Assembly (NCBI GenBank): GCA_022376465.1
Contig: JACDTU010000017.1
Location: 558,001 to 622,000 of the forward strand
Direction of reading: 5' to 3'
From: Cubamyces lactineus
Taxonomy: Eukaryota > Basidiomycota > Agaricomycetes > Polyporales > Polyporaceae
DNA length: 64,000 nt
The position numbers were made by a program, and so were the translations under genes. Shown piece by piece: positions 24,576-39,823 of this stretch. A model generated the notes under the pieces. That model ran no database searches. It worked only from the letters and a program-made list of their open reading frames with translations, and was not told the DNA's origin. Numbering within the stretch: the first letter of the stretch is position 1; the number at the start of each line of letters is the position of its first letter.

Positions 24576-24803
24576 TGTTACGATGGTGCGTGACACGGCC
24601 ACTGTTACGGTTACGTCTTGGTCTTGTGACTTGTCCTATGCTTATGTATCGTGCTTACGTTCCGGAGGCCGAGCCTGCTGCGGCTTACTCGTGTGTTGTA
24701 TACTTAGCTCCATTCTCCCATGCCACGTCAGCGACACGTCAGTTATTCTCATGATTCGTCACCTCCATTCCCATGTACAGTCAGCCCCAGCTATACTTAG
24801 CCG
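24576..24803 (+). repeat. Gypsy 5' LTR, first part
   Basis: TGTTACGATGGTGCG onward matches 38684-38917 apart from one T/C change near the start and one missing GGTTAC unit. It ends with AGCCG at the Copia insertion. Confidence 0.9.
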
Positions 24804-25335
24804 TGTTGAACTTCCAGGTTATCGGCTGCGCCGGACCGGGAATGTGGACCTTGTGGCTGTGGCGCCTACAACGCGCACAGCATGGACTTTGTTCCTTTTA
24901 TGGACTGCTCAGTGTACGTACTGTAGTTGGACATTCTTTCATTCCCTCCATCTTTCCGTTGCGTTCTACACTGCTACGGATCCTTCCAGAGAGTTCTATA
25001 CCTATGACACCATATGTCGCGATACTCGCACCATGGTCTTACTCATTGTACATAGCGATCACATGCCTCCTTTCTTCGCTTACTCATGGCACTCCTCTCT
25101 CAGTATATAAGGAGGACATTCTTCGCCCCTGCTCTTCAGTCGTTCGCTCACAGACTGAAGAGTAAGTTCCCTTATTACCTATGGTTTATATGCAGTTACT
25201 TACTGAGTACTTGTAGCTTCTTTGTGTCGCTTACAGGTACTTATACTATGCAATATAGTCGTTCGCTCACAGACTGAAGACTTCTTTGTGTCGCTTACAG
25301 GTCGCTCCCAGCCTTCTAGGTTCAGAAGTTCGTCA
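24804..25335 (+). repeat. Copia 5' LTR
   Basis: TG..CA ended. A TATATAA box lies at 25104-25110. Downstream, two near-identical segments (CGTTCGCTCACAGACTGAAG, then CTTCTTTGTGTCGCTTACAGG) recur in the R/U5 part, one pair carrying a GTAAGT donor-like site. Confidence 0.95.
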
Positions 25336-25347
25336 GGTTATGAGCCC
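25336..25347 (+). promoter_or_regulatory. Copia primer-binding site, tRNA-Met anticodon-arm type
   Basis: GGTTATGAGCCC directly follows the LTR and is complementary to GGGCTCATAACC, the anticodon arm of initiator/methionine tRNA. Copia-type elements are known to prime from half-tRNA-Met fragments, which explains a match to the anticodon arm instead of the tRNA 3' end. Confidence 0.65.
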
Positions 25348-26307
25348 TGCGCTCTAACTTGTTGCTGCTTCTGTCGACATCTCTGCGCGCACCCTCCCTT
25401 CGTCGACATCGCTGTTGTGCACCCTCCCCTCCATAATTCCTTAACTCTTGACTGTTGCCCGCCGACACTGCTACCAGGGGGACATTTCTGCGCTCGTGAC
25501 GCAGCCCTGAGTGCTTTTACTATAGCCCTAGTACTCAGTAGGCTGTACAGCTCTTTGTAGCGAGCTCTTTCTAGTATCCCTGGGTCAGGCCTCGCACTTG
25601 CGACAGCCAGCCCTTGTATCCGGGTTCTTTAGGAACTTAGGACCGGAGGACAACCGTCTGGACCCTCCTTACGATACTCTTTTTGTCGGATAGCAGTACA
25701 TAGTTTTTCTTGGGCACAGTTGGCAACTTCTACCCAGATTTTCGGGCATTTCGGCTGTCTGGATCTCTGGTTCTCCTGAACAGGTGTTCCCATCTACCAG
25801 GACTTCTCGGTGCACACAGCAAGTCAATCATCGCGCTTTTTCTGAACCGTTTTGGAGCCGACCACAGCGGAACCTCTTGCCATAGACTCTGAGGAGGAAG
25901 TCGACGCCACTCTCGACAACCCTTCAGAATCATCTGCCTTTGATTGTTCTGGGCTTATCCACTTCTTCGACGTCGACGAGAACCTCGACCGTTACTACGA
26001 CCCAGAAGACGACAGCTACTTTGCTTGCGATAGCTTCCCCTGCCCTAATCGCTACCAGAACCTTCAAGAGCCTCCACCCGGTAACGTCTGGGCTGTAGTC
26101 CCAGAACCTTGGCAAGTTACTCCGCTTCCTCCTTCTTCGACAGAAGAAGAGGAAGACCTAGAATCAGTCTACGAGCCTTCACCTCTCCTTGCTCCCACAC
26201 CCCTTCCTCCGGACGCGCCTCTCCAATTCGTGCCTCCACAATCTCCACCTCCTACACTCGATCTAACTGAGAATCTCGTCGATTCGCCCCAATTCTTTCT
26301 CCTCACT

Positions 26308-29300
26308 ATGGGCGACATCAAACCTGAATCCGTCCCTCTCCTTTCTTCGGCCAGCCAGTACGCCGACTGGGCTGCAAAGATGAAGGGTCTCCTCATGTTC
26401 ATGAACTGCTGGGATGTAGTCTCTTCGGAGACGACTGAACCTACCGACGCTGAGGAGCGCAAGGAGTATAGGAAGAAGAATGCTCAGGCATGCGGTCTGC
26501 TCTTCATGCGGACTGGGCCTAGCTTCCACTATCTCCTCGAAACGAAGACGACCAATGGCACCTCCTCTCCGGCCAATCTCACTGCCAAAGAAATGTGGGA
26601 TGCGCTGAAAGACAAGTTTGGGAAACCGAACTCTGCGCACGTTTGGGGTCTCTTCGAGTCGCTCATCAGCGAGTCTCGCATGTCAGACCAGCGTTCGCTT
26701 CAGGATCAGATGAGTCGGATCGTCACGCGTATCCGCGAGATCTCGACCAACGGCCTGAAGTTAGAGGACAACATTCAGGCCCTCATCCTTCTCTCCAAGG
26801 TCCCGGAGTCCTACCGACCTATGATCTCTGCGCTCATGGCCACTATGGACCTCGACAAGATCACCGTCGATGTCATCCTCGAGAAGTCTCTCTCTGAGGA
26901 AGCCATGCGCAAGACCGGTCAGTCCGCTGCTCGGATCTCCAAGACCAAGCCCAAGCCGTCCGGCCCCTGCGACTTCTGTGGCAGTCAGACCCATCATGAG
27001 TCAACTTGCTACAAGAAGCACCCCGAGCTTCGCCCTAAGGGCAACAAGGGTAAGGGCAACGGTGGCAAGAAGAAGGACAAGGATAAGGAGAAGGACAAAG
27101 GGAAGGGAAAGGACAATTCTCATGACCATGCGCACGTCTCGGCCAATGTACTTGTAGCTGAATCCGGCTCTAACATGCACGCTTCTTTCTATGATGCGGC
27201 GAAAGCTGCTGCTGGTGTGCGGTATACTCGTTGGCTGATGGACTCTGGTGCATCTCAGCACGTCACTTGGTGCTTTGACGACTTCACCGAGTATGAACCC
27301 TTCGACAAACCGCTGACCTTCAATACCGCCTCATCTGGCGAAGGTTCGGTTATTCAGGGACTCGGTCAAGGCACTGTTAAAGCTGAGACTCTTGTCGATG
27401 GTCAACGGTGGACTATCACTCTTCCAAACGTCTGCTATGTGCCTGAGGCCTCTGCACGACTATTCTCCACCGGTACCATTGAGAAGAATGGTTATTCTCT
27501 CTTCCAAGGAGCGAGGAAGATGATGATCTTCGACAAGCAGCCGGAAGGCGCTGTCGACTCAGGCTCGACGATTCGCATCAAGGGTCGAAAGATCCTTGAG
27601 GCACCGTACAATCCTGCGAGCAATCTCTATGATTTGACTCTGGAGATTATCCTGAACAGGCATGTCCACCTAAACGTTCGCAGTTACAAGACCTGGCATC
27701 GTCGCTTTGGTCATGCAGGCAAGGAGCCTCTTCGCCATCTGCCTAAGAACGTTAAGGGTGTTGACCAGCTTGATCCCGCGGATGATGAACCATGTGAGGG
27801 TTGTGCCTTTGGCAAATCCCACAGACTCCCTTTCCCGTCGTCAGAAAAGCGTGCGGCTGAGCCCCTTGAGCTCGTTCACACTGATCTTGATGGGCCAATG
27901 CGCACTGCGTCAGTTGGCAGCGGATTCAAGTACTTCGCTAGCTTCATCGATGACTACTCCGGTCTCGCCCGTGCTTACTTCCTGAAGTACAAGTCGGACG
28001 CCTTCAAAGCGTTCAAGGACTTCAAGGCTTGGGCCGAGAATCAAACCGGGAGGAAAATCAAGCGAGTCCGCTCTGATCGTGGTGGGGAGTACACGTCAAA
28101 CGAGTTCTCTGAGCTTCTCCGCAGTCTAGGGATCGAGCACCACAAAACTATGCCTGATTCGCCTCAGCAGAATGGACGCGCTGAACGCTGGAACCGTACA
28201 ATCACTGAAAAGGCTCTGTCTATGCTTCATCATGCTGGACTTAGTCACGGTTTCTGGCAACTCGCTATCGAGGCAGCCGTTCACATCTACAATCGTCAGC
28301 CTATGCGTCGTCTGAAATGGCGATGCCCCATCACTCTGTGGGATGGGACCATCCCTGATGTGTCCTATTTCCGCGTTTTTGGCTGCAAAGCCTACGTTCA
28401 CGTGCAAAAGGACAAGCGCAAAGGGAAACTCGACATGAAGGCTGTCGAGATGATCTTTGTCGGGTATGAGCAGGGTTCCAAGGGGTATAAATTCTGGAAT
28501 CCAGCCACCCACTCTATCGTTGTATCTCGCGATGTGATCTTCGATGAAGAGTCTTTTCCTGCACGCAAGATTCCTGGCAATCGTCCTGTTACCCCAGACG
28601 ATAGTCCGTTCTCAGATCAAGAAGTCCCTTCAGACGATGCCTCCAATGCTGAGCCTGAAAACTTCGAGATCGATATCCCTCTTCCTATTCCTCTCCCAGA
28701 GGCTGCACCTCCTGCGCCTCCTGCACCTCCAGAACAACCTGCTCCCCCTTCTCCACAACAACCTAATCCACCACCTGCTGTTCCTCCGCCACGGCCTAAC
28801 CATCAGCGAAATCGTCATGAGCCAGTGGGAGGTCCTAGCATAGCGCGTGATCGCCCTCGTCGCGAAAACGTTCCTAGACCTCAGCGCTACAGGGACAGCG
28901 TGTACGGTGATGAGCCACCTGCAAAGGTTGATGCTCGAACAGATGCGGAAGGGAACTTGGAGGACGATGAACAAGTTGTACAATCTATCATTGCGATGCT
29001 CGCTGCCGCAACCCATAAGCCTGGCATTCCTAACTCTCATCGACAAGCCATGGCATCTCCAGACGCGGAGAAGTGGCGTGCAGCTGAGAAAGCAGAGTAC
29101 GACTCGCTCATTGAGAACAAGACCTGGCTTCTTGTGCCCAGGCCGAAGAACCGACAAGTCGTCGCCAATCGTTGGGTGTATGACATCAAGCATGATGGTC
29201 GGTACAAGGCTCGTCTTGTGGCCAAGGGTTTTACTCAGGTCTGGGGGGAGGATTACAATGAAACCTTTTCGCCTGTTGCGCGTTTTGAGTCAATTCGTTA

Positions 29301-30573
29301 CCTCCTCGCGCACGCTGCGCTTGAGGACTGGGACATCGAGTCGATGGATGTCAAAACGGCGTTCTTGAATGGCGACTTGGAGGAGGAGATCTACATGGAA
29401 CAGCCTGAGGGCTGGGTTGTTCCTGGCAAGGAAAACTTCGTGTGTCTGTTGCTGAAAGCTATTTACGGCTTGAAGCAGGCGTCTCGTCAATGGAACGCCA
29501 AGATACACCAAATCTTGCTAGATCTGGGATTCATACGGACATACTCTGATGCCGGAGTCTATGTATATCGGCGACATAGGGGGGATTCCGTCACGATCAT
29601 CGTTCTGTATGTCGACGATCTACTCCTCATGGGTGACAAGCCTGGCCATATTAAGGCTACCAAGGAGGCCTTGATGCAGCGGTTCAAGATGATGGATCTG
29701 GGTCCTGTCTCGCGTTTTCTTGGTCTGAACATTGTTCGCGATCGTAAAGCTCGAACGATTGACATCGACCAGATAGACTACATCCAGTCCGTTCTCGAAC
29801 GTTTTGACATGGCCGACTGCAAGCCGGCTCGCACTCCTCTCCCTGCTGGTGCTGTACTGGAGAAATCTAGTCACACCGCCGCCGATCACTCCCGGAAACG
29901 GTACCAGAGCCTAATTGGCAGTCTGCTCTATGCGACTTTGGGTACACGTCCGGATATCTCCTTCGCGGTCCAGAAGTTGTCTCAGTACAACTCTAATCCT
30001 AGTGACGCACACTGGAACTATGCCAAGTATGTTCTGCGGTACCTGCAAGGGACCAAAGACTACCGGTTGCGTTACTTCGGTTCCTCGAATGACGGTCTTT
30101 TGGGTTATTCAGACTCGGACTGGGCTGAGGACCGGGATGACCGCAGGTCCACTGGAGCTTACGTCTTCTTGATGGCGGGCGGCGCTATTTCCTGGCAGTC
30201 TAGGAAACAGCCGACTGTTTCGCTCTCCTCGACCGAGGCGGAATACAAGGCTGCGTCAGACGCTTGTCGTCAAGTTGTATGGCTTCGCACGTTTGGTGAA
30301 GAGTTGGGGGACGACATCTCTCGCCCTACACCCTTGTGTCTCGACAACCAAGGGTCCATCTTCTTATCGGTTAATCCAGTCACCGAGCGTCGCACGAAGC
30401 ACGTCGACGTCCAGTACCACTACACTCGCGAACAGGCTGAGTTAGGGACGATCGACATCTTCTACGTAGCGACAGAGGATCAACTAGCTGATTCCTTGAC
30501 GAAGAATGTCTCCTTCTCTATATTGGAGCGCTTCAGAAAGGCGATTGGTCTAGTCTCTCCCTCCGCAGTTTGA
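26308..30573 (+). CDS. Copia Gag-Pol polyprotein
   Basis: One frame of 1422 residues from the first ATG (26308, MGDIKPESVPLL). It stays open upstream to 25846, but only with non-ATG codons. Order: UBN2-type Gag; zinc knuckle CDFCGSQTHHESTC (about 26970); protease DSGASQH (27241); integrase HHCC (HRRFGHAG ... CEGCAFGKSH) and catalytic DDE residues in HTDLDGPM, SDRGGEYTSNEF and GRAERWNR; RT with KARLVAKGF, DVKTAFLNG and YVDDLLLMG; RNase H ending with SDSDWAED and STEAEYKAASDA. All catalytic motifs look intact and there is no stop or frameshift, in contrast to the host Gypsy pol. Copies RNA into DNA within cytoplasmic particles and integrates it. Confidence 0.93.
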   Translation: MGDIKPESVPLLSSASQYADWAAKMKGLLMFMNCWDVVSSETTEPTDAEERKEYRKKNAQACGLLFMRTGPSFHYLLETKTTNGTSSPANLTAKEMWDALKDKFGKPNSAHVWGLFESLISESRMSDQRSLQDQMSRIVTRIREISTNGLKLEDNIQALILLSKVPESYRPMISALMATMDLDKITVDVILEKSLSEEAMRKTGQSAARISKTKPKPSGPCDFCGSQTHHESTCYKKHPELRPKGNKGKGNGGKKKDKDKEKDKGKGKDNSHDHAHVSANVLVAESGSNMHASFYDAAKAAAGVRYTRWLMDSGASQHVTWCFDDFTEYEPFDKPLTFNTASSGEGSVIQGLGQGTVKAETLVDGQRWTITLPNVCYVPEASARLFSTGTIEKNGYSLFQGARKMMIFDKQPEGAVDSGSTIRIKGRKILEAPYNPASNLYDLTLEIILNRHVHLNVRSYKTWHRRFGHAGKEPLRHLPKNVKGVDQLDPADDEPCEGCAFGKSHRLPFPSSEKRAAEPLELVHTDLDGPMRTASVGSGFKYFASFIDDYSGLARAYFLKYKSDAFKAFKDFKAWAENQTGRKIKRVRSDRGGEYTSNEFSELLRSLGIEHHKTMPDSPQQNGRAERWNRTITEKALSMLHHAGLSHGFWQLAIEAAVHIYNRQPMRRLKWRCPITLWDGTIPDVSYFRVFGCKAYVHVQKDKRKGKLDMKAVEMIFVGYEQGSKGYKFWNPATHSIVVSRDVIFDEESFPARKIPGNRPVTPDDSPFSDQEVPSDDASNAEPENFEIDIPLPIPLPEAAPPAPPAPPEQPAPPSPQQPNPPPAVPPPRPNHQRNRHEPVGGPSIARDRPRRENVPRPQRYRDSVYGDEPPAKVDARTDAEGNLEDDEQVVQSIIAMLAAATHKPGIPNSHRQAMASPDAEKWRAAEKAEYDSLIENKTWLLVPRPKNRQVVANRWVYDIKHDGRYKARLVAKGFTQVWGEDYNETFSPVARFESIRYLLAHAALEDWDIESMDVKTAFLNGDLEEEIYMEQPEGWVVPGKENFVCLLLKAIYGLKQASRQWNAKIHQILLDLGFIRTYSDAGVYVYRRHRGDSVTIIVLYVDDLLLMGDKPGHIKATKEALMQRFKMMDLGPVSRFLGLNIVRDRKARTIDIDQIDYIQSVLERFDMADCKPARTPLPAGAVLEKSSHTAADHSRKRYQSLIGSLLYATLGTRPDISFAVQKLSQYNSNPSDAHWNYAKYVLRYLQGTKDYRLRYFGSSNDGLLGYSDSDWAEDRDDRRSTGAYVFLMAGGAISWQSRKQPTVSLSSTEAEYKAASDACRQVVWLRTFGEELGDDISRPTPLCLDNQGSIFLSVNPVTERRTKHVDVQYHYTREQAELGTIDIFYVATEDQLADSLTKNVSFSILERFRKAIGLVSPSAV

Positions 30574-30584
30574 ACGAGTGGGAG

Positions 30585-31116
30585 TGTTGAACTTCCAGGT
30601 TATCGGCTGCGCCGGACCGGGAATGTGGACCTTGTGGCTGTGGCGCCTACAACGCGCACAGCATGGACTTTGTTCCTTTTATGGACTGCTCAGTGTACGT
30701 ACTGTAGTTGGACATTCTTTCATTCCCTCCATCTTTCCGTTGCGTTCTACACTGCTACGGATCCTTCCAGAGAGTTCTATACCTATGACACCATATGTCG
30801 CGATACTCGCACCATGGTCTTACTCATTGTACATAGCGATCACATGCCTCCTTTCTTCGCTTACTCATGGCACTCCTCTCTCAGTATATAAGGAGGACAT
30901 TCTTCGCCCCTGCTCTTCAGTCGTTCGCTCACAGACTGAAGAGTAAGTTCCCTTATTACCTATGGTTTATATGCAGTTACTTACTGAGTACTTGTAGCTT
31001 CTTTGTGTCGCTTACAGGTACTTATACTATGCAATATAGTCGTTCGCTCACAGACTGAAGACTTCTTTGTGTCGCTTACAGGTCGCTCCCAGCCTTCTAG
31101 GTTCAGAAGTTCGTCA
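30585..31116 (+). repeat. Copia 3' LTR
   Basis: Same length and, by eye, same sequence as the 5' LTR (24804-25335). Followed by the second AGCCG target copy. Confidence 0.95.
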
Positions 31117-31356
31117 AGCCGTACTGAACATTCGCTTACTGATCCGGTCTATTATTAGTTCCGGTCATGTATATATAAGCCGAGGATCTTCTTCGAAGAA
31201 CCTCAGCTCGATCTGGTTATCTATTGCCTATTCACCGAACCCCGACTCGCCTCTTCTCAGAAGATCTTTGATCCCTGACTCGCCTCTTCGTTACTCTTCG
31301 AGGCGACGTGACCCCTAGCTCAGCCACCGCGTGACCGATCTAGGCTCGTCATAACA
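31117..31356 (+). repeat. Gypsy 5' LTR, second part
   Basis: Continues the Gypsy LTR after the Copia insertion and ends GTCATAACA. It holds a TATATAA box at 31172-31178 and a likely transcript start near 31200. Confidence 0.9.
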
Positions 31357-31358
31357 TT

Positions 31359-31368
31359 AGATCGAGCT
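31359..31368 (+). promoter_or_regulatory. Gypsy primer-binding site, putative self-priming
   Basis: AGATCGAGCT starts 3 bases after the LTR. It is the exact reverse complement of AGCTCGATCT at 31205-31214, which lies about 30 bases past the TATA box, where the mRNA 5' end should be. Tf1/sushi elements prime by folding the mRNA 5' end onto such a site. No tRNA 3' end match was seen. Confidence 0.6.
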
Positions 31369-31861
31369 CTCGAATCGCCGTCAATCTACCCAGATTTAGA
31401 CGACACCGATCGGCGCGGCTCTGGAATAGAGTGCGCCTGAACCCGACGAAACGGAAGAACAGCCGACAGTTTACTCGGCGAACAAGGAGACCAAGCTAGT
31501 ATACTACGGAGAAGACCAAGTTTACTGGGAAGACAAATCGTGGCACTTCACTCCTCACCCACTCACCTGGCAAGAGTGCCTTCAAATCTCCCCTGAATAC
31601 CGTGTCAAGTACAACGAACTAGCTGAAGAAGAACTCCCGGAGGAACCAGCGGCACCCGTGGAGACAGAAACCCGAACAGAACCGAACTCGCTGCTGACAT
31701 CCCCAGTCGACTTCACCACTCCACGAACTTCTCGAGTAGAAGTAGCGAGCAGCAGTGAATCAGAAGACACCTCTCAGCAAGGCGAGAGCTCGACAGAAGA
31801 ATCGGAAGAACCGATCGCCGCACCAGAAACCAAGGAAGACACCTCAGACGAATCAGAAGAT

Positions 31862-32899
31862 ATGGCCGAACAAAGACAGCAGGAACCCCAGGCAGCGGCC
31901 CCCGCACCACTCGTCGAACCGCGATACGAGCGAACCCCCGAGATGAAACTGAAGATGCCCCCGGAGTTTGAAGGGAAGCGAGGAGAGGTCGTTGAATGGC
32001 TGCAGAAATGCATGCTATACCTCTCTATCAACGAAGCAGCCTACAACACCGATCAGAAGAAGATCATCTTCTGCCTCATGCTGATGAACAGAGGGACATC
32101 CGGAGCATGGGCGAGGTCGTTTATCGAAGACACACAGGCACAAGCGGAGAAACAAGGACCAGGAACTCCTCTAAACTGGGGCACATGGCGGGACTTCTCC
32201 AAGCAACTCACTGAAGCCTTCGACGACGCCGACGCTCAGGCCAGTGCAAGAGTACTGCTGCGAAGCGTCCGCCAGGGCAAACGACCAGTGGAGGAGTACA
32301 TCACCGAATTCAAATCCCTGATCTCGCGCTGCGGTATCACCGACTATCGCATCATCGCCGACTTCTTCTACGAAGGATTGAATAGGCCACTGCACGAGAA
32401 GATCTTCGGGATGTACCCCATGCCTAACGACACGAACACCCTCTACATGAGAGCCGCGACACTGGAGCAGCAATGGTTGCTCAGCAAGACATACAATGGG
32501 AAGGGAAAGACCACGTACAACCCTACCTACAAGCCGCGCCAACACAGGACACGCGAACGAGACCCTGACGCCATGGACGTCGACCGAATGCTCCCAGAAG
32601 AACGTGAGAAGCACTACAAAGAAGGACGATGCTTCAATTGCCATCAAGTGGGACATTTGGCACGCCAATGCCCCCTCAAGAAGGGGAAGAACGGAGACCG
32701 GAAGGGGAAGACGAAAGCCCGAATCACGGAGGTAGCCGAAGAAGAGGACAGCGACGACGATTCCAAGTCCACCTCTACCCGAGCATCTAACTCCTCTAAG
32801 AAGCTCATCGCTGCATGCATCCGCCTCGCCCTCAAGGACCTCGATGACAAAGAAGACCGCAAGGACGTAGTATCCGACCTCCTGGACGGGGGTTTTTGA
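31862..32899 (+). CDS. Gypsy Gag
   Basis: From ATG 31862 (MAEQRQQEPQA) the frame gives 345 residues. It contains a retrotransposon Gag capsid block (PEFEGKRGEVVEWLQKC ... WGTWRDFSKQLTEAF ... VEEYITEFKSLISRCG) and one CCHC zinc knuckle, CFNCHQVGHLARQC (about 32632-32675), followed by a basic then acidic tail. The same frame is open without an ATG from 31429, and its content there looks coding. Gag ends GGF-TGA at 32897-32899 within a GGGTTTT slippery sequence leading to pol. Forms the particle shell and packages RNA. Confidence 0.88.
   Translation: MAEQRQQEPQAAAPAPLVEPRYERTPEMKLKMPPEFEGKRGEVVEWLQKCMLYLSINEAAYNTDQKKIIFCLMLMNRGTSGAWARSFIEDTQAQAEKQGPGTPLNWGTWRDFSKQLTEAFDDADAQASARVLLRSVRQGKRPVEEYITEFKSLISRCGITDYRIIADFFYEGLNRPLHEKIFGMYPMPNDTNTLYMRAATLEQQWLLSKTYNGKGKTTYNPTYKPRQHRTRERDPDAMDVDRMLPEEREKHYKEGRCFNCHQVGHLARQCPLKKGKNGDRKGKTKARITEVAEEEDSDDDSKSTSTRASNSSKKLIAACIRLALKDLDDKEDRKDVVSDLLDGGF
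32890..32896 (+). promoter_or_regulatory. Candidate -1 ribosomal frameshift site, GGGTTTT
   Basis: In the gag frame it reads G-GGT-TTT followed at once by the TGA stop. Slipping back one base places the ribosome in the pol frame (GGG-TTT-TTG-AAG). This fits the X-XXY-YYZ rule for -1 shifts. No downstream stem or pseudoknot was assessed. Confidence 0.55.
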
Positions 32900-35800
32900 A
32901 GAACCGGCGTGCATCGACGTCACGACCGCGAACAACGATCCGTAATGTAATAGTAGCGCAGACTTCAAAGCAGTCTATGAGAATACCGCTATTTATTCAT
33001 ACGGATCGAAGCGTCGAAGCGAAAGCCCTAATCGACACAGGAGCTGGAGAAACTTTCATGGACTACCGATTTGCGAAAGAGCAGAAGTTGAAGCTCACGG
33101 AACTGAAGAAGCCTATTCGAGTCTTCAATGCGGACGGAACCCAAAACGAGGCAGGCGACATCAAGAAGTGCGCTTCGATCGAAGTCGAAGCAGGAGGACA
33201 CCAACACATCATCCGATTCCTCATCACATCGCTAGGGAAGGAACCAATCATTCTAGGACTCCCCTGGCTTCAACGAGTCAATGCGAACATCGACTTCACA
33301 GCAGGGACACTGGACATCGACCCTGGCAAGGTAGTCAAGACGGTCGTCGAGCACCTCAGAGAGATGTGGTTCCCAGATCAAGATCCATTCACGGGACGAC
33401 TCAGGGAAATAGGAGAAGAGGAAGACCCAGAGAATGAAACAGAATCAGAAGAAGACGAAAACGAAGACCCCCTATACGAAGATATCGGACGAGTTACCAC
33501 ATCAGACATCAAGTCAGAGGAAGAACCAGATGACCAGGAACTCTTGATCGCATATCTACGAGACGAAATGGACAAAACGACCCATCCGCACGTGGTTGAA
33601 TGGCACGGAGACACTCCCAGACCGGGAAACCCCTTGACCGGTGAACATCAACACGATGATGACGCACGCGTAGGACCAGGACCCAGCATCGGACGAATTC
33701 GAAAAGCACCAACAGGAATACGCTTTGCAATAGCCAACAATGTCTGGATACGAGCAAAAGTCAACCCCGCTATGGCAATGGCACAGCAGCAACAGGCGCA
33801 GGAGAAGCCGAAGACATTCGAAGAGATGCTACTGGCGGCGTATCAGGAATTCGCCAGTGTCTTCGAGAAGAAAGCCTCAGAACGATTTCCACCGGCCAGG
33901 CCATGGGATCTCGCTATTGAACTAAAGGAAGGCTTTGTACCGAAGGACTTCAAGCGGTATCAGTTAACGCCCAAAGAACTGGAAGCTGAAGAAGAATTCA
34001 TGCGAGAAAACCTGCGAAAAGGATACATCAGAACCTCGAAGTCCCCCATGTCATCACCATTCTTCTTTGTAGGGAAGAAAGATGGGTCACTGCGACCCTG
34101 CCAAGACTATCGTTACCTGAACGAAGGAACAATCCCGAACAAGTATCCTTTACCGCTGATCCCGGAGTTAATCGACAAGCTTCGAGGAGCCAAGATATTT
34201 TCGAAGTTGGACCTACGATCGGGATACAACAACGTACGAATCAAGAATGGCGATCAATGGAAAGCCGCGTTCCGAACCAGTTCGGGCCTATATGAGCCGA
34301 TGGTCATGTTCTTTGGCCTCCGCAACTCGCCAGCCGCCTTTCAAGCCATGATGAACTCCATATTCAAGGATATGATCGATGAATGATGGGTGGTAATCTA
34401 TATGGACGACATCCTCATATTCTCAGGAGACGAGGAAACCCATCGACGACGAACACTTCGAGTACTGGAACACTTACAAGAACACGACCTTTACCTCAAA
34501 CTCGAAAAGTGCACCTTCGACGCAGAAGAAGTGGAATACTTAGGAATGATCATTCGGGAAAACAGCGTTGCGATGGACCTGGTCAAACTAAAAGGAATTC
34601 TCGATTGGCCGGAACCAACGACCGTAAAGGATGTCCGATCATTCCTAGGTTTTGGGAACTTCTATCGACGCTTCATCGACCACTTTTCCGAGATCGCGCA
34701 ACCACTGAACGCACTCACCAAGAAGAACGCCAAATGGGAATGGTCCGCAGAATGCCAGAAAGCATTCGACCAACTCAAGACCCGCTTCGCCATGGCCCCT
34801 GTGCTACAGATGCCGGACGTCACCAAACCATTCCTAGTAGAATCAGACGCATCTGAATGGGCAACTGGAGCGGTCTTGCGACAGTGCGACATCAATGGTG
34901 ACATGCGACCTTGTGCGTACCTATCGGAAGGATTCACCGAGGCGGAATGAAACTACGAAATCTACGACCAAGAACTGTTGGGGATCATTTGAGCACTCAA
35001 AGCATGGCGACACTATCTAGAAGGATCAGGGAATCCAGTAACGATACTCTCCGACCACAAGAACTTGACCTACTGGCGAAATCCACAACAGTTGAACCGA
35101 CGCCAAGCACGATGGGCGCTCTTCCTTTCCCAATTCGACATGACATTAGTACATACCCCTGGAACAGCCATGGTCCAATCTGACGCCCTATCACGACGAC
35201 CGGACCACCGACAAGGAACCGACAATGACAATGTAGAACGCACAATGCTCCCAGATAAGCTCTTTGTTTGAATGGTTGACCTAGCCGTCGCACCAAGATT
35301 CCAAGAACTAGCAAAACAAGACCGCCTGTTTTGCGACGCACTGGCAGCGCTACGGAACCACGGACCCCCGCCAATAAGAAGCACCCTGACAGATTGGTCC
35401 GAAAGGGAAGGACTGGTCTTTTACAAGAATCGCTGTTATGTTCCTGCAGACGAAACTCTCCGAACCGATCTCGTGCGACAGCATCACGACTTACCCGCCG
35501 CCGGACACCCAGGCAAATTCAAGACGCTAGAACTCTTGCGAAGATCCTGCTGGTGGCCGGGAATGTACACCATGGTATCCAAATACGTAGAAGGCTGCGC
35601 CATCTGTCAGCAAGCAAAACCGAACACACATCCCACGACACCGCTGCCACAAGCAATTCCTGCTACAGGCGTCACCCAACCATTCGAAAACGTCACCATG
35701 GACCTCATCACTGACCTCCCAATATCGCATGGCTATGACAGTATTCTGGTCGTGGTCGACCAAGGCCTTACGAAGGGGGTGATTTTTGCACCCTGCAAGA

Positions 35801-36735
35801 AGACGGTGGACGCAATCGGAATGGCGGAACTCTATCATCGACACGTTTACAGAAGGTTTGGACTACCCAGCAAAATCATCTCGGATCGGGGACCCCAGTT
35901 CGTATCCAACGTCACCAAGGAACTAGGACGACTCCTTGGAATCACATTGTCACCCTCCACAGCCTATCATCTGCAGACCGATGGACAGACAGAAAGAGTT
36001 AATCAGGAACTTGAAGTCTACCTCCGAATATTCTGCGAAGGAAGACCCGACAAATGGGTAGAACATCTCACCGATGCGGAAGTCGCGCATAATCAACGCC
36101 TACACTCGGCCCGAAACGCGTCGCCATTCTACCTCATGATGGGTTACGATCCTCCACTGATACCGCTGGCGTACCCCCGAACCAATGTCCCAGCAGTACA
36201 AGAGTGACTTACGAACCTGCAGAAAGCAAGGGATGAAGCATTAGCAGCGCACGAACTGGCACGGAACGTCATGACCAACTGGTATCGAGGGAAGTTCACC
36301 CAATTTGCCAAAGGACAGAAGGTCTGGCTAGAAGGGAAGAACCTACACCTTGCTTATGCCTCGAGGAAGCTGGCACCCAAACGAGAAGGGCCATTCCACA
36401 TCACCGAAGTCATCGGACTGGTCACATACCATCTAGAACTGCCAAAGTCGTGGAAGATCCACCCTGTGTTTCATGCGTGTTTCCTGACACCCTATAAGGA
36501 AAACAACACCCACGGACCCAATCACACGAGACCCCCACCTGACCTGGTTGACGGAGAAAAAGAGTACGAGGTCGAAGCTATTGTGGGACACAAGATGATC
36601 CGAGGAAAACCCCGATTCCAAATCAAGTGGTGGGGTTACTCATCAGCGGAAAACACATGGGAACCTGAGTCAGCGCTCCTGCCAAATGCTGCCGAGATCC
36701 TCGAGAGGTATAAAAAGGCAAGGAAACTCGCCTGA
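32896..36735 (+). pseudogene. Gypsy Pol with chromodomain, interrupted by five TGA codons
   Basis: One frame from 32896 to 36735, unshifted throughout. Protease DTGAGETF (33038); RT with GYIRTSKSPMSSPFFFVGKKDG, FSKLDLRSGYNN and YMDDILIFS (34400); RNase [13 protein letters not shown]; integrase HHCC (HHDLPAAGHPG ... CAICQQAK), MDLITDLP, SDRGPQF and TERVNQE; chromodomain EVEAIVGH ... [18 protein letters not shown] (36570-36680). Stops in frame: 34384, 34948, 34990, 35269 and 36205, all TGA. At 34948, 34990 and 36205 the family normally has Arg ([25 protein letters not shown]). CGA is a heavily used Arg codon in this element, so CGA-to-TGA change explains them. The chromodomain presumably targets integration to marked chromatin. 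Confidence 0.88.
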
Positions 36736-36745
36736 ATCTCTCACC

Positions 36746-36979
36746 ATGCCCTCTCTCGAATCACTCCACATCCTCTACTGTGCTGTCCTCGTTTCCGCCA
36801 CGCTTGCCTTCCTCCACTTCACCCTCCGAGACCAACCATCCCCCGCACTCATCTTCGCTCTCTACTGCACCCTTGTTCTCGCTTCCATCCTCACCTTCCT
36901 CCACTTCAATCTCTCCGATCTCCATACTCGCATCGCTGAGCGAACACTCAAAAACCGCAACCCCTCCAGCACCTGGTGA
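36746..36979 (+). CDS. Gypsy extra ORF A: two-helix membrane peptide
   Basis: 77 residues from an ATG in good context (CACCATGCC), 10 bases after the pol stop. It has two hydrophobic helices that are repeats of each other: HILYCAVLVSATLAFLHFTL and FALYCTLVLASILTFLHFNL. A basic tail (RTLKNRNPSSTW) follows. Its TGA (36977-36979) is immediately followed by the ATG of the next ORF. I recognise no family. It sits where retroviruses and errantiviruses carry env, but it has no fusion peptide, glycoprotein features or signal-peptidase site that I can identify. Confidence 0.65.
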   Translation: MPSLESLHILYCAVLVSATLAFLHFTLRDQPSPALIFALYCTLVLASILTFLHFNLSDLHTRIAERTLKNRNPSSTW

Positions 36980-37204
36980 ATGCCCCATTTCATCGAACGA
37001 TTTGCTTACGTCATCGTCGCTGTTCCCGCAACCATCGTCGCCACCATCGCAGCTACCATTTGCCTCCCAATCCTTTGCGTCGCATCGTGCCTCACCCACG
37101 ACTCCCTCGAGCGCGAGTTCCATCACACCAACAACCGATCGCCCCCATTACCGATAAGAATCCCCGCTCGCTCCACCGAGTCTGACGATGAACGAACCCT
37201 ATGA
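36980..37204 (+). CDS. Gypsy extra ORF B: single-helix membrane peptide
   Basis: 74 residues, MPHFIERFAYVIVAVPATIVATIAATICLP and on. One long hydrophobic stretch with Ala/Ile/Val and three cysteines (residues about 9-38) is followed by a polar tail ending TESDDERTL. It starts directly at the stop of ORF A (TGAATG) and its TGA overlaps the next ATG as ATGA at 37201-37204. No known family recognised. Confidence 0.6.
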   Translation: MPHFIERFAYVIVAVPATIVATIAATICLPILCVASCLTHDSLEREFHHTNNRSPPLPIRIPARSTESDDERTL

Positions 37205-37353
37205 TTGTTGTCGTGTGCATGACCATCAACTTCCTACTCGCCCTCCTCTGGATCCTCGCCTACGCCGTCCTCTATCTTCGTATCATCGAGTTCACCATCG
37301 AACACCGCGACATCCCTGCCGACAGCCTTCCCATCTACCCCAACCATGCCTAA
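37201..37353 (+). CDS. Gypsy extra ORF C: 50-residue membrane peptide
   Basis: MIVVVCMTINFLLALLWILA continues as YAVLYLRIIEF, giving a single N-terminal membrane helix, followed by a short polar tail ending PIYPNHA. It overlaps ORF B by four bases (ATGA) and ORF D by eight bases (37346-37353, ATGCCTAA). Such tight stop/start overlap implies termination-reinitiation if it is translated. No family recognised. Confidence 0.55.
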   Translation: MIVVVCMTINFLLALLWILAYAVLYLRIIEFTIEHRDIPADSLPIYPNHA

Positions 37354-38647
37354 CTTCGAGTTTGCGGAGAACCTAACCCCGGAGAGTTTCTCAGTCACCT
37401 CCACGCAGTCGCTAAACCCGAGCGACCAAGAAAACATTCCCCCTCCTGCGGCTCCTCCTCCTCCGTACGACGATGCAACAGACGAAGCGGACAGCGACCC
37501 CGAGGAACTGGACGAAACATCTGATCTAGAGTCGCTCGCTACGAATGACACTCTCGCCGACCAACCCAATTCGCGAGAAGGACGACAACTCGTCAATGCT
37601 CTCCTCACGGATCCGGGACCCCTCATCAATGCGGTGCGCGCCGATCCCGAGCTAGTCAACCCGCTCGCCAGATATCGGGACATGTTCAACGATGCGCGGG
37701 AGTTCGGCCACATTGGCGGGCATCTGGTCAACCTGCGAGGGTCGGCGTCCCTGATCAGGGAAGACGCGCGTGGCCAACTCGGCAGGATACAAAGGAGCAT
37801 GAAGACTGTCGCAGAAGCGCTGGACCATGTTGAAGAGGTTGTCAACGACATAAGAAAGGAAGTCTCCGACATCACCCACCTCTATGAAGACGATGCCGAG
37901 CGTATCCTCGAATCAGCGCAGGAAGTCACCGAGTACGTCCATTCCGTCGAGGCATCTGTCAGCCGATTCCGGCTCCGCAATGGTCGAGGGCGGCGAAGTC
38001 TCATCCAGCATATGGAATCCCCTGCATTCACCGTTCGACACCAGCCGTACACTCGCAACCTCCTTCCCTTGCTCGAACCTCCATCCGGCGAACAGCCCGC
38101 TGCGTACCATACCATCCCTGGATCTTCGCGGGAGGACTACACGTACCTACCGCGCGACCACCGCAACTACACCCGACGAGCACGAGAGGCGACAATAATA
38201 CAGCGACGACTCGAACAAGGAGTCGAATCTCGTGTAGCGCGACGCACGTCGATGCGTCAAGCACGACCACCAACGCCCTACGCTCCGGAGGTAGCTGGTC
38301 CAGTCGCTGCCAACCCTGGGCCCTCAACAGTGGTGCCTCGAATCCCACTTGCAGACGTTCAATTCCGTACGCACTCGCTGTCCTACGAACCCGCGACGAG
38401 GCCTGCGACCGCAGCACCTGCGCAGCCGGAAGAAGCCCCGGTCATACCGCCACCCCCATATGGCCAGGCCCTGACGAACAACGCGCAGTTCTATCCGCGT
38501 TCGCTGGAGGAAGCGACAAGGGACGCGCGCGCTAACCCACCATGGGGAGTACAGGCTCCCGTCGAACTCGCGGACGCCACTCTCGATGACCCTGCTCGTG
38601 GTCTCCAGGGTCTGGACGGGCTCAACAATTGCGAATATTATTGGTGA
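37346..38647 (+). CDS. Gypsy extra ORF D: 433-residue coiled-coil protein with two PPPPY motifs
   Basis: From ATG 37346 (MPNFEFAENLTPES) to TGA 38645-38647, uninterrupted although pol is broken. The N-terminal 80 residues are acidic and Pro-rich with APPPPYDDAT. Residues about 100-215 form helical heptad-like sequence (RGSASLIREDARGQLG, MKTVAEALDHVEEVVNDIRK), likely a coiled coil. Residues 215-330 are Arg/Pro-rich, then IPPPPYGQAL occurs near residue 370. PPxY is the ligand for WW domains of Nedd4/Rsp5 ubiquitin ligases. No family match known to me. It ends 36 bases before the 3' LTR, just upstream of the purine tract. Confidence 0.65.
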   Translation: MPNFEFAENLTPESFSVTSTQSLNPSDQENIPPPAAPPPPYDDATDEADSDPEELDETSDLESLATNDTLADQPNSREGRQLVNALLTDPGPLINAVRADPELVNPLARYRDMFNDAREFGHIGGHLVNLRGSASLIREDARGQLGRIQRSMKTVAEALDHVEEVVNDIRKEVSDITHLYEDDAERILESAQEVTEYVHSVEASVSRFRLRNGRGRRSLIQHMESPAFTVRHQPYTRNLLPLLEPPSGEQPAAYHTIPGSSREDYTYLPRDHRNYTRRAREATIIQRRLEQGVESRVARRTSMRQARPPTPYAPEVAGPVAANPGPSTVVPRIPLADVQFRTHSLSYEPATRPATAAPAQPEEAPVIPPPPYGQALTNNAQFYPRSLEEATRDARANPPWGVQAPVELADATLDDPARGLQGLDGLNNCEYYW

Positions 38648-38671
38648 ACGACGAGGTCATCGTCGACCATA

Positions 38672-38683
38672 CGAAGGGGGTAA
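38672..38683 (+). promoter_or_regulatory. Gypsy polypurine tract
   Basis: CGAAGGGGGTAA directly precedes the TGTTAC start of the 3' LTR, the position from which plus-strand DNA synthesis is primed. Confidence 0.75.
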
Positions 38684-39152
38684 TGTTACGACGGTGCGTG
38701 ACACGGCCACTGTTACGGTTACGGTTACGTCTTGGTCTTGTGACTTGTCCTATGCTTATGTATCGTGCTTACGTTCCGGAGGCCGAGCCTGCTGCGGCTT
38801 ACTCGTGTGTTGTATACTTAGCTCCATTCTCCCATGCCACGTCAGCGACACGTCAGTTATTCTCATGATTCGTCACCTCCATTCCCATGTACAGTCAGCC
38901 CCAGCTATACTTAGCCGTACTGAACATTCGCTTACTGATCCGGTCTATTATTAGTTCCGGTCATGTATATATAAGCCGAGGATCTTCTTCGAAGAACCTC
39001 AGCTCGATCTGGTTATCTATTGCCTATTCACCGAACCCCGACTCGCCTCTTCTCAGAAGATCTTTGATCCCTGACTCGCCTCTTCGTTACTCTTCGAGGC
39101 GACGTGACCCCTAGCTCAGCCACCGCGTGACCGATCTAGGCTCATCATAACA
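38684..39152 (+). repeat. Gypsy 3' LTR
   Basis: 469 bp, TGTTACGACGG..CATCATAACA. It contains the uninterrupted Copia target sequence TTAGCCGTACTGAAC at about 38911, which proves that the Copia element split the other LTR. Confidence 0.93.
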
Positions 39153-39823
39153 TAACCATCGAAACCTTCGGCCTACAGTATATCTCGCTGTGGGCGCCTA
39201 ATATATAATGCTATGACGCCCTAATAATAGCTGTAGTAGTCGCCTTTGCAGGTGATACAGACTGGACGTAATGCATTACTTAGGTAGAAACAGATTCTAA
39301 GTAGACTACATTATATGAGAGTTCAAGCGCTCACACATGTATAGACTCAGGAGTATGCTGGCTTGGCCGAGCGCCTCTGGGCTCCGAGAATTTGTCCAGT
39401 TATGTGACATAGGTATGGCCGTGCCTTACGCGATTTTGTCCGGCATTTGACAGTGGGTTGGGGGCCAATTTTGGCCTGTTTTGTCCGAAAAAAATGTAGC
39501 TTGGCCCCCCTCCGGGGGACCAAATTTGTCCGAATTGTGATATGGCTGGGCCTACTATTATCGGGGGTCCTTGGTAGCGCTGGGGAGGTTACTTATGGGC
39601 GCACGTGGGTGCTATTTCGTCCCTGATCGGGTGTTCCCCACGTTGTGCCGCAACTCTGTCCTCACCACCTCTTCCTCTCAGTTGCCATCATCGTTGAGAC
39701 CGCAAGACTCGTCTTACCTTCGTCTTGCTAGCAAGCTATTGTGCGTGGACTTGGAATTGTGAAATCCATAGCGCAAGCTCAAAACCGCCCGGTTCGATCA
39801 GGCGCGCAACCACACTTGCAAGG
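39153..39823. other. Intergenic region upstream of a CFEM gene
   Basis: No gene. The hAT frame from the left side of the Gypsy element does not continue here. The region includes the tandem repeat at 39391-39555 and presumably the CFEM promoter. Confidence 0.4.
39391..39555. repeat. Degenerate ~45-bp tandem repeat with TTTGTCC core
   Basis: TTTGTCC occurs at 39391, 39435, 39480 and 39525, spaced 44, 45 and 45 bp. Each copy is followed by a loosely conserved TGTGACAT-like stretch and TGGCC or TTGGCC. One unit contains the hairpin CCCCCCTCCGGGGG. Confidence 0.55.

Follow-up and report, generated by a model that had tools for sequence, protein, structure and literature searches.

In a survey of the Gypsy/chromovirus elements of fungi (PMC2864245), the majority of full-length elements are described as having one or two ORFs, and on some elements an additional ORF of unknown function is marked. 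The chromovirus of Cubamyces lactineus described here shares with the surveyed elements the LTRs, gag, a pol comprising protease, RT, RNase H and integrase, and the C-terminal chromodomain. Unlike the majority of these, with their one or two ORFs, it carries four additional ORFs in an overlapping series after pol.

In plants and rotifers, additional ORFs in sense orientation have been reported upstream of the 3' LTR (PMC7264820, PMC5408684). The cassette studied here has in common with them the position, the strand, membrane spans in some of the products and an uncertain use. Yet the ORFs of these two reports are env-like or encode an enzyme, whereas the cassette consists of three miniproteins in tandem plus a PPxY protein, and it occurs in a fungus. 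PPxY late domains are found in retroviral Gag (PMC2958808, PMC2940739), where the motif lies in a proline-rich stretch as it does in ORF4, the last ORF of the cassette. In the retroviruses of these reports the motif is part of Gag; here, in contrast, it belongs to a separate protein encoded after pol, and the binding of a ligase is predicted.

Stop-restart translation is described for the silkworm non-LTR element SART1, for caliciviruses and for influenza B (PMC5972666). The cassette resembles the systems treated there in that a stop codon touches or overlaps the start codon that follows (TGAATG, ATGA). It differs from them in that three restarts in series are predicted, that the carrier is an LTR element and that no clear helper structure was found in the six copies folded. 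Polycistronic mRNAs as such are reported from Agaricomycetes, Trametes versicolor included (PMC4503453, PMC11590231). The polycistronic gene pairs reported for G. lingzhi are on average 434 bp apart, whereas the gaps in the cassette, including that between pol and ORF1, range from -8 to +10 nt. In the open-access literature, searched by titles and the beginnings of abstracts, we found no description of a comparable row of ORFs. What is secure about the cassette is which genes it comprises, that two families conserve them and that the PPxY motif is kept; its mRNA, the restarts, the ligase partner and the use are proposed.

The element and its cassette

The window, i. e. the whole stretch of DNA that was analysed, comprises 64,000 nt of C. 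lactineus contig JACDTU010000017.1 (558,001-622,000, forward strand), and all coordinates are positions in this window unless a locus is named. The genome in which copies were searched comprises 36.3 Mb in 43 contigs. The element spans positions 24576-39152 on the plus strand (Table 1). The order protease-RT-RNase H-integrase, the C-terminal chromodomain, the TG...CA ends of the LTRs and the polypurine tract identify it as a chromovirus (Ty3/Gypsy). In pol, the domains RVP_2, RVT_1, RT_RNaseH, Integrase_H2C2 and Chromo scored above their Pfam cut-offs; rve scored under its cut-off (26.4 vs 32.6).

Table 1. Features of the chromovirus and its cassette (positions in the window).
Feature	Position	Strand	Remarks
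5' LTR, first part	24576-24811	+	96.3% over 242 columns (6 gaps) to the LTR from 38684; begins TGTTACGA
5' LTR, second part	31117-31356	+	1 mismatch in 241 vs 38913-39153; end at TCATAACA by inspection
gag	31658-32899	+	Retrotrans_gag, CCHC zinc knuckle; GTG start as listed
Probable -1 frameshift site GGGTTTT, then gag stop TGA	32890-32899	+	from the sequence
pol (protease, RT, RNase H, integrase, chromodomain)	32896-36735	+	single frame, five in-frame TGA here
TATAAAAAGG, candidate internal promoter	36709-36718	+	37 nt before the ORF1 start
ORF1	36746-36979	+	77 aa, two membrane spans resembling a tandem duplication
ORF2	36980-37204	+	74 aa, one membrane span; abuts ORF1 as TGA, ATG
ORF3	37201-37353	+	50 aa, one membrane span, charged tail; overlaps ORF2 as ATGA
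ORF4	37346-38647	+	433 aa, soluble, proline-rich; overlaps ORF3 as ATGCCTAA
Polypurine tract region ACGAAGGGGGTAA	38671-38683	+	assigned by inspection of the sequence
3' LTR	38684-39152	+	TGTTACGA...TCATAACA

The 5' LTR of the chromovirus is split by a Copia element (about 24812-31116), which carries an ORF of 1573 codons (25852-30573, TTG start as listed) that was typed as Copia by its sequence. The flanks that were read show no target-site duplication, so that the window copy may be a recombinant. Since, in addition, the first and second parts of the 5' LTR have not diverged to the same extent, dating by the LTRs was dropped. The pol of the window copy contains no frameshift, but because of the five in-frame stops this copy is probably unable to make its own Pol.

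The cassette follows the chromodomain, with which pol ends, and precedes the 3' LTR; the polypurine tract lies downstream of ORF4. The initial annotation had described four ORFs of 77, 74, 50 and 433 codons, joined by TGAATG, ATGA and ATGCCTAA, and all of its coordinates proved right. ORF1 starts 10 nt after the end of pol; its open frame reaches further upstream to an ATG at 36686, within pol. The frame of ORF4 likewise extends beyond the ATG in the upstream direction, by 41 codons (474 instead of 433 codons). The two strands of the window together contain 272 ORFs, among which there are 17 abutting pairs of ORFs of at least 50 codons, so such pairs alone are not rare. Three consecutive abutting links, however, occur in the window only in the cassette.

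ORF1 to ORF3 had been taken for hydrophobic membrane peptides and the whole for an accessory membrane module. For the three small ORFs (50-77 residues) this is borne out by hydropathy, which peaks at 2.4-2.7 over 19 residues and gives each of them one or two membrane spans. It does not extend to ORF4, where the highest 19-residue value is 0.56 and no membrane span is present. The ORF1 of the window copy's family appears to have arisen when a single membrane span was duplicated in tandem (z 6.2). A likeness of ORF2 to other ORFs of the cassette was not found (p 0.10-0.84), and in Pfam none of the four ORFs reaches a family cut-off.

Conservation and purifying selection in two families

In the family of the window element, called family A, 17 copies were examined: 14 with whole cassettes, ten of them uninterrupted and four split by later insertions, and three with partial ones. 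All 14 whole cassettes have kept the four ATG starts and the junctions TGAATG, ATGA and ATGCCTA(A/G); one partial copy has TAAATG. Premature stops are absent from ORF1 and ORF3 (0/14 each) and occur in ORF2 of two copies and in ORF4 of ten. In one copy a single nucleotide of ORF1 is deleted. In comparison, stops interrupt the last 244 codons of pol in six of the 14 copies. Among the 16 stops in ORF4, 15 are TGA and nine lie at positions where the window copy has CGA, a pattern of CpG decay. The 417 changes seen in single copies include 281 C-to-T or G-to-A changes, 148 of these at CpG, and across the cassette the copies differ pairwise by 8-12% on average. ORF4 is intact in 4/14 copies, and all four ORFs are without stops or frameshifts in three, the window copy included; such low shares are as expected for decaying copies.

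Selection was assessed by dN/dS (Nei-Gojobori), pooled over the 14 copies, with intervals from a codon bootstrap. The values are 0.104 (0.048-0.190) for ORF1, 0.256 (0.155-0.394) for ORF2, 0.140 (0.068-0.264) for ORF3 and 0.141 (0.115-0.171) for ORF4, compared with 0.111 (0.078-0.158) for the last 244 codons of pol. Omission of any single copy shifts them by at most 0.03. Eight out-of-frame controls gave values of 1.16-5.2, with bootstrap intervals that extend below 1 in five of the eight. A context-conditioned permutation in which CpG changes were treated separately agrees with these results (observed/expected N/S 0.15-0.44). Because copies decay neutrally after insertion, the dN/dS values would understate the selection that acts on active elements. 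ORF1 to ORF4 are real genes under purifying selection. The check proposed in the initial annotation, namely whether other copies keep the four ORFs and their overlaps with a low dN/dS, thus came out in favour of the cassette.

One of the family A copies, C42 (loci L046 and L018), is a mosaic: the end of its pol and ORF1 to ORF3 are nearest to copy C15, and its ORF4 is nearest to the window copy. This suggests template switching.

A sister family, family B, with an integrase 81-86% identical to that of family A, is represented by 55 genomic places with ORF3-like matches; all 15 genomic places that match ORF2 belong to family A. Family B has homologues of ORF1, ORF3 and ORF4 but not of ORF2, in a spacing that is different yet equally tight. 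Its ORF of 52 aa resembles the second half of family A ORF1 and its ORF of 62 aa resembles ORF3 (z 8.8 and 7.3, block shuffles); its ORF4 has 344 aa (locus L034, 1474-2508). We examined 21 loci, which amount to 20 distinct copies since L033 and L065 are the same copy. In 19 of them both ORF1 and ORF3 are preserved, as are the gaps of 5 and 1 nt, and the 344-aa ORF4 is retained by 16. N/S is 0.04 for ORF1 and 0.33 for ORF3 (19 copies, one frameshifted copy excluded); for ORF4, calculated from the 16 intact copies, it is 0.11. Between the families, the identity amounts to 52% for ORF1, 41% for ORF3 and about 35% for ORF4, compared with 86% for the integrase-chromodomain part and 56% for the C-terminal end of gag (123 aligned residues). 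A paralogy of ORF1 and ORF3 was considered and dropped: of four comparisons in block shuffles, that of family A ORF3 with family B ORF1 had a p of 0.03, but in the remaining three p was 0.16-0.35.

In a third chromovirus family (integrase 50-52% identical), both copies read have an unrelated ORF of 385-422 aa after pol (L081 690-1847, L082 688-1956). Together with the additional ORFs marked in the survey PMC2864245, this means that extra ORFs after pol are not unique.

Family A ORF4 contains 11% proline and a single Cys and has a charge of -23 (family B, -4). PPxY is present at residues 38-41 and 369-372. At one and the same alignment place the motif is found in all seven ORF4 sequences aligned, as PPPY in family A, PPEY in family B and PPSY and PPNY in the database proteins P0004 and P0005, with both prolines and the tyrosine invariant. 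Within family A, the N-terminal PPPY was read in 13 of 14 copies (C42 has an alignment gap there) and the second PPPY in all 14; PPEY is present in the 16 intact ORF4s of family B. Gag has no PPxY. By shuffling, two motifs in family A have p = 0.012 and one in family B p = 0.09. For so short a motif in a protein with this much proline, the conserved place is a stronger argument than the shuffling. The C-terminus of family B ORF4 carries two zinc knuckles, CX2CX4HX4C and CX2CX6HX4C, both present in 16/16 intact copies; they are absent from family A ORF4.

In the protein database searches, each of which scored the 8000 candidates sharing most words, four relatives of ORF4 were found among the scored candidates with alignments that included family B. 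A search with a single ORF4 sequence found no relative among its 8000. The relatives are 98% (P0003), 94% (P0006), 69% (P0004) and 66% (P0005, from Trametes cubensis) identical to family B ORF4, and P0003 and P0006 may stem from the same species or one very close to it. With P0003 as the query no relative was found in viral contigs, and an ORF4 profile matched no solved structure at E up to 1. The Pfam matches of ORF4 to the coronavirus spike S2 (20.8, cut-off 40), DUF948 and EzrA all lie below their cut-offs and were rejected; we read the spike match as a coiled-coil artefact.

Possible signals for expression

The layout of gag and pol fits a -1 frameshift, and pol seems to need such a shift. 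The GGGTTTT heptamer is found in seven of eight further family A loci (it is missing in L077) and in the 4/4 family B loci read. As pol would be reached only by this shift, ribosomes that arrive from pol alone, by read-through or by stop-restart, would make almost no ORF4.

A possible way out is a separate mRNA. The motif TATAAAAAGG holds the only TATAAA in 32896-38650 and the only TATA(A/T)A(A/T) in 31358-38650. Of 16 family A copies, 15 retain TATAAAA and one has lost it; 19/19 distinct family B copies shown have it. The motif lies on Tyr-Lys codons (TATAAG in family C), and therefore protein constraint explains part of its conservation. The TATA motif points to an mRNA of its own, in place of read-through from pol, as a possible source of the cassette's products.

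The contexts of the four starts differ. At -3 there is an A for ORF1 and ORF4, a T for ORF2 and a C for ORF3, the last two being poor contexts; in family B ORF3 has a C and ORF4 an A. In nine of the 14 family A copies, the window copy not among them, the stretch from the ORF1 start to that of ORF4 contains no ATG besides the four start codons and a single Met codon in the frame of ORF3. Stray ATGs are, however, not fewer than synonymous shuffles predict (window copy and one family B copy). The stops and starts overlap or abut in all 14 family A cassettes and are 5 and 1 nt apart in 19/20 family B copies. Spacing and start contexts fit the possible coupled translation that the initial annotation had suggested; victoriviruses are a further example of stop-restart systems. 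RNA folding, analysed in six of the 14 family A copies, has its lowest segments across the pol-ORF1 and ORF2-ORF3 junctions (mean z -1.81 and -1.77), which is at best weakly suggestive of a helper structure. The pentamer TGGGA occurs at 36658 and, in L034, at 1036 and 1461; 36658 and L034 1036 are the same chromodomain site.

Possible roles of the cassette

Our interpretation is that the cassette is a selected accessory operon for membrane association and trafficking, specific to the lineage of a small chromovirus clade and probably translated by stop-restart on a subgenomic mRNA; we put the probability of this at about 50%. ORF1, ORF2 and ORF3 would be very small membrane proteins, which probably assemble with each other, and ORF4 would be a soluble adaptor whose PPxY most likely binds the WW domains of a Rsp5/NEDD4-type ubiquitin ligase. 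This contact could link particles or RNA of the element to the membrane or to the ESCRT/endosomal route. The cassette would then act as a matrix plus budding module, unlike a fusion envelope. The short subgenomic mRNA probably starts just upstream of ORF1, where the conserved TATA motif lies, and ORF2, ORF3 and ORF4 would be translated by ribosomes that terminate and then reinitiate where the codons abut.

Several other explanations have to be weighed. Open frames that arose by chance in a decaying element can practically be discounted: the pol of the window copy is dead and stop-start abutments do arise by chance, but the in-frame dN/dS of 0.10-0.26, as against 1.16-5.2 in the wrong frames, the conservation in two families and the homologues outside them led us to reject this. 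Fungal genes are rich in introns and the frame of ORF4 is open upstream of its ATG, so one might think of the four ORFs as exons of one spliced protein. Yet the ATGs of the ORFs are conserved and set at the preceding stop, in two families of different spacing, which makes a single spliced protein very improbable; it was rejected as well. More thought is due to the idea that the ORFs counter host defence or control copy number like retroviral accessory proteins, without relation to particles. Fast divergence is frequent among host antagonists, and the divergence of ORF4, ORF3 and ORF1 between the families (35, 41 and 52% identity) exceeds that of pol (86%), with ORF2 found in a single family. 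Gag, however, diverges fast too (56%), and the low dN/dS within the families, with no overall sign of positive selection, makes host antagonism appear doubtful.

The zinc knuckles of family B raise the question of whether ORF4 is a second nucleocapsid or an RNA chaperone, with the small ORFs mainly serving as translational devices that meter it, as small ORFs upstream of a main ORF are able to do. We regard this as unlikely, since family A ORF4 has no knuckles and ORF1 to ORF3 are conserved as proteins, with homologues of ORF1 and ORF3 across the families. The location between pol and the 3' LTR, the several membrane spans and the PPxY, which is similar to a late domain, would also suit an envelope-like module for passage from cell to cell, in which ORF1 to ORF3 were parts of a membrane fusion or channel complex. 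But a large glycoprotein is absent; the cell walls of fungi hinder entry; ORF4, which has the N-glycosylation sequons and an RxKR-type site, is not a membrane protein; this single site lies at different places in families A and B; and the match to the coronavirus spike stays below its cut-off. A true fusion envelope was therefore rejected, given an ORF4 with one Cys (family A) and no membrane span and ORF1 to ORF3 of such small size, and we see little chance for an envelope-like module in the wider sense.

The preferred reading, an accessory operon for membrane association and trafficking, could be carried further. The duplicated membrane span, the miniproteins with a PPxY adaptor, the three successive stop-restarts and the mRNA from an internal promoter might together constitute a home-made operon for the egress of particles, which would stand in for matrix and envelope and could carry RNA of the element in vesicles between hyphae. 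This is speculative and, in our estimation, improbable.

ORF2 and the duplicated span were gained in one of the two sister families, or lost in the other, which means that the module is being remodelled. If the proposed translation is true, several serial stop-restart junctions on one eukaryotic mRNA would offer a compact natural test bed for reinitiation. LTR elements of fungi are usually regarded as gag-pol machines confined to the cell. If our interpretation is true, selected membrane miniproteins and a motif of the ubiquitin-ligase-binding type would mean that these elements put together their own sets of accessory genes, in the manner of viruses.
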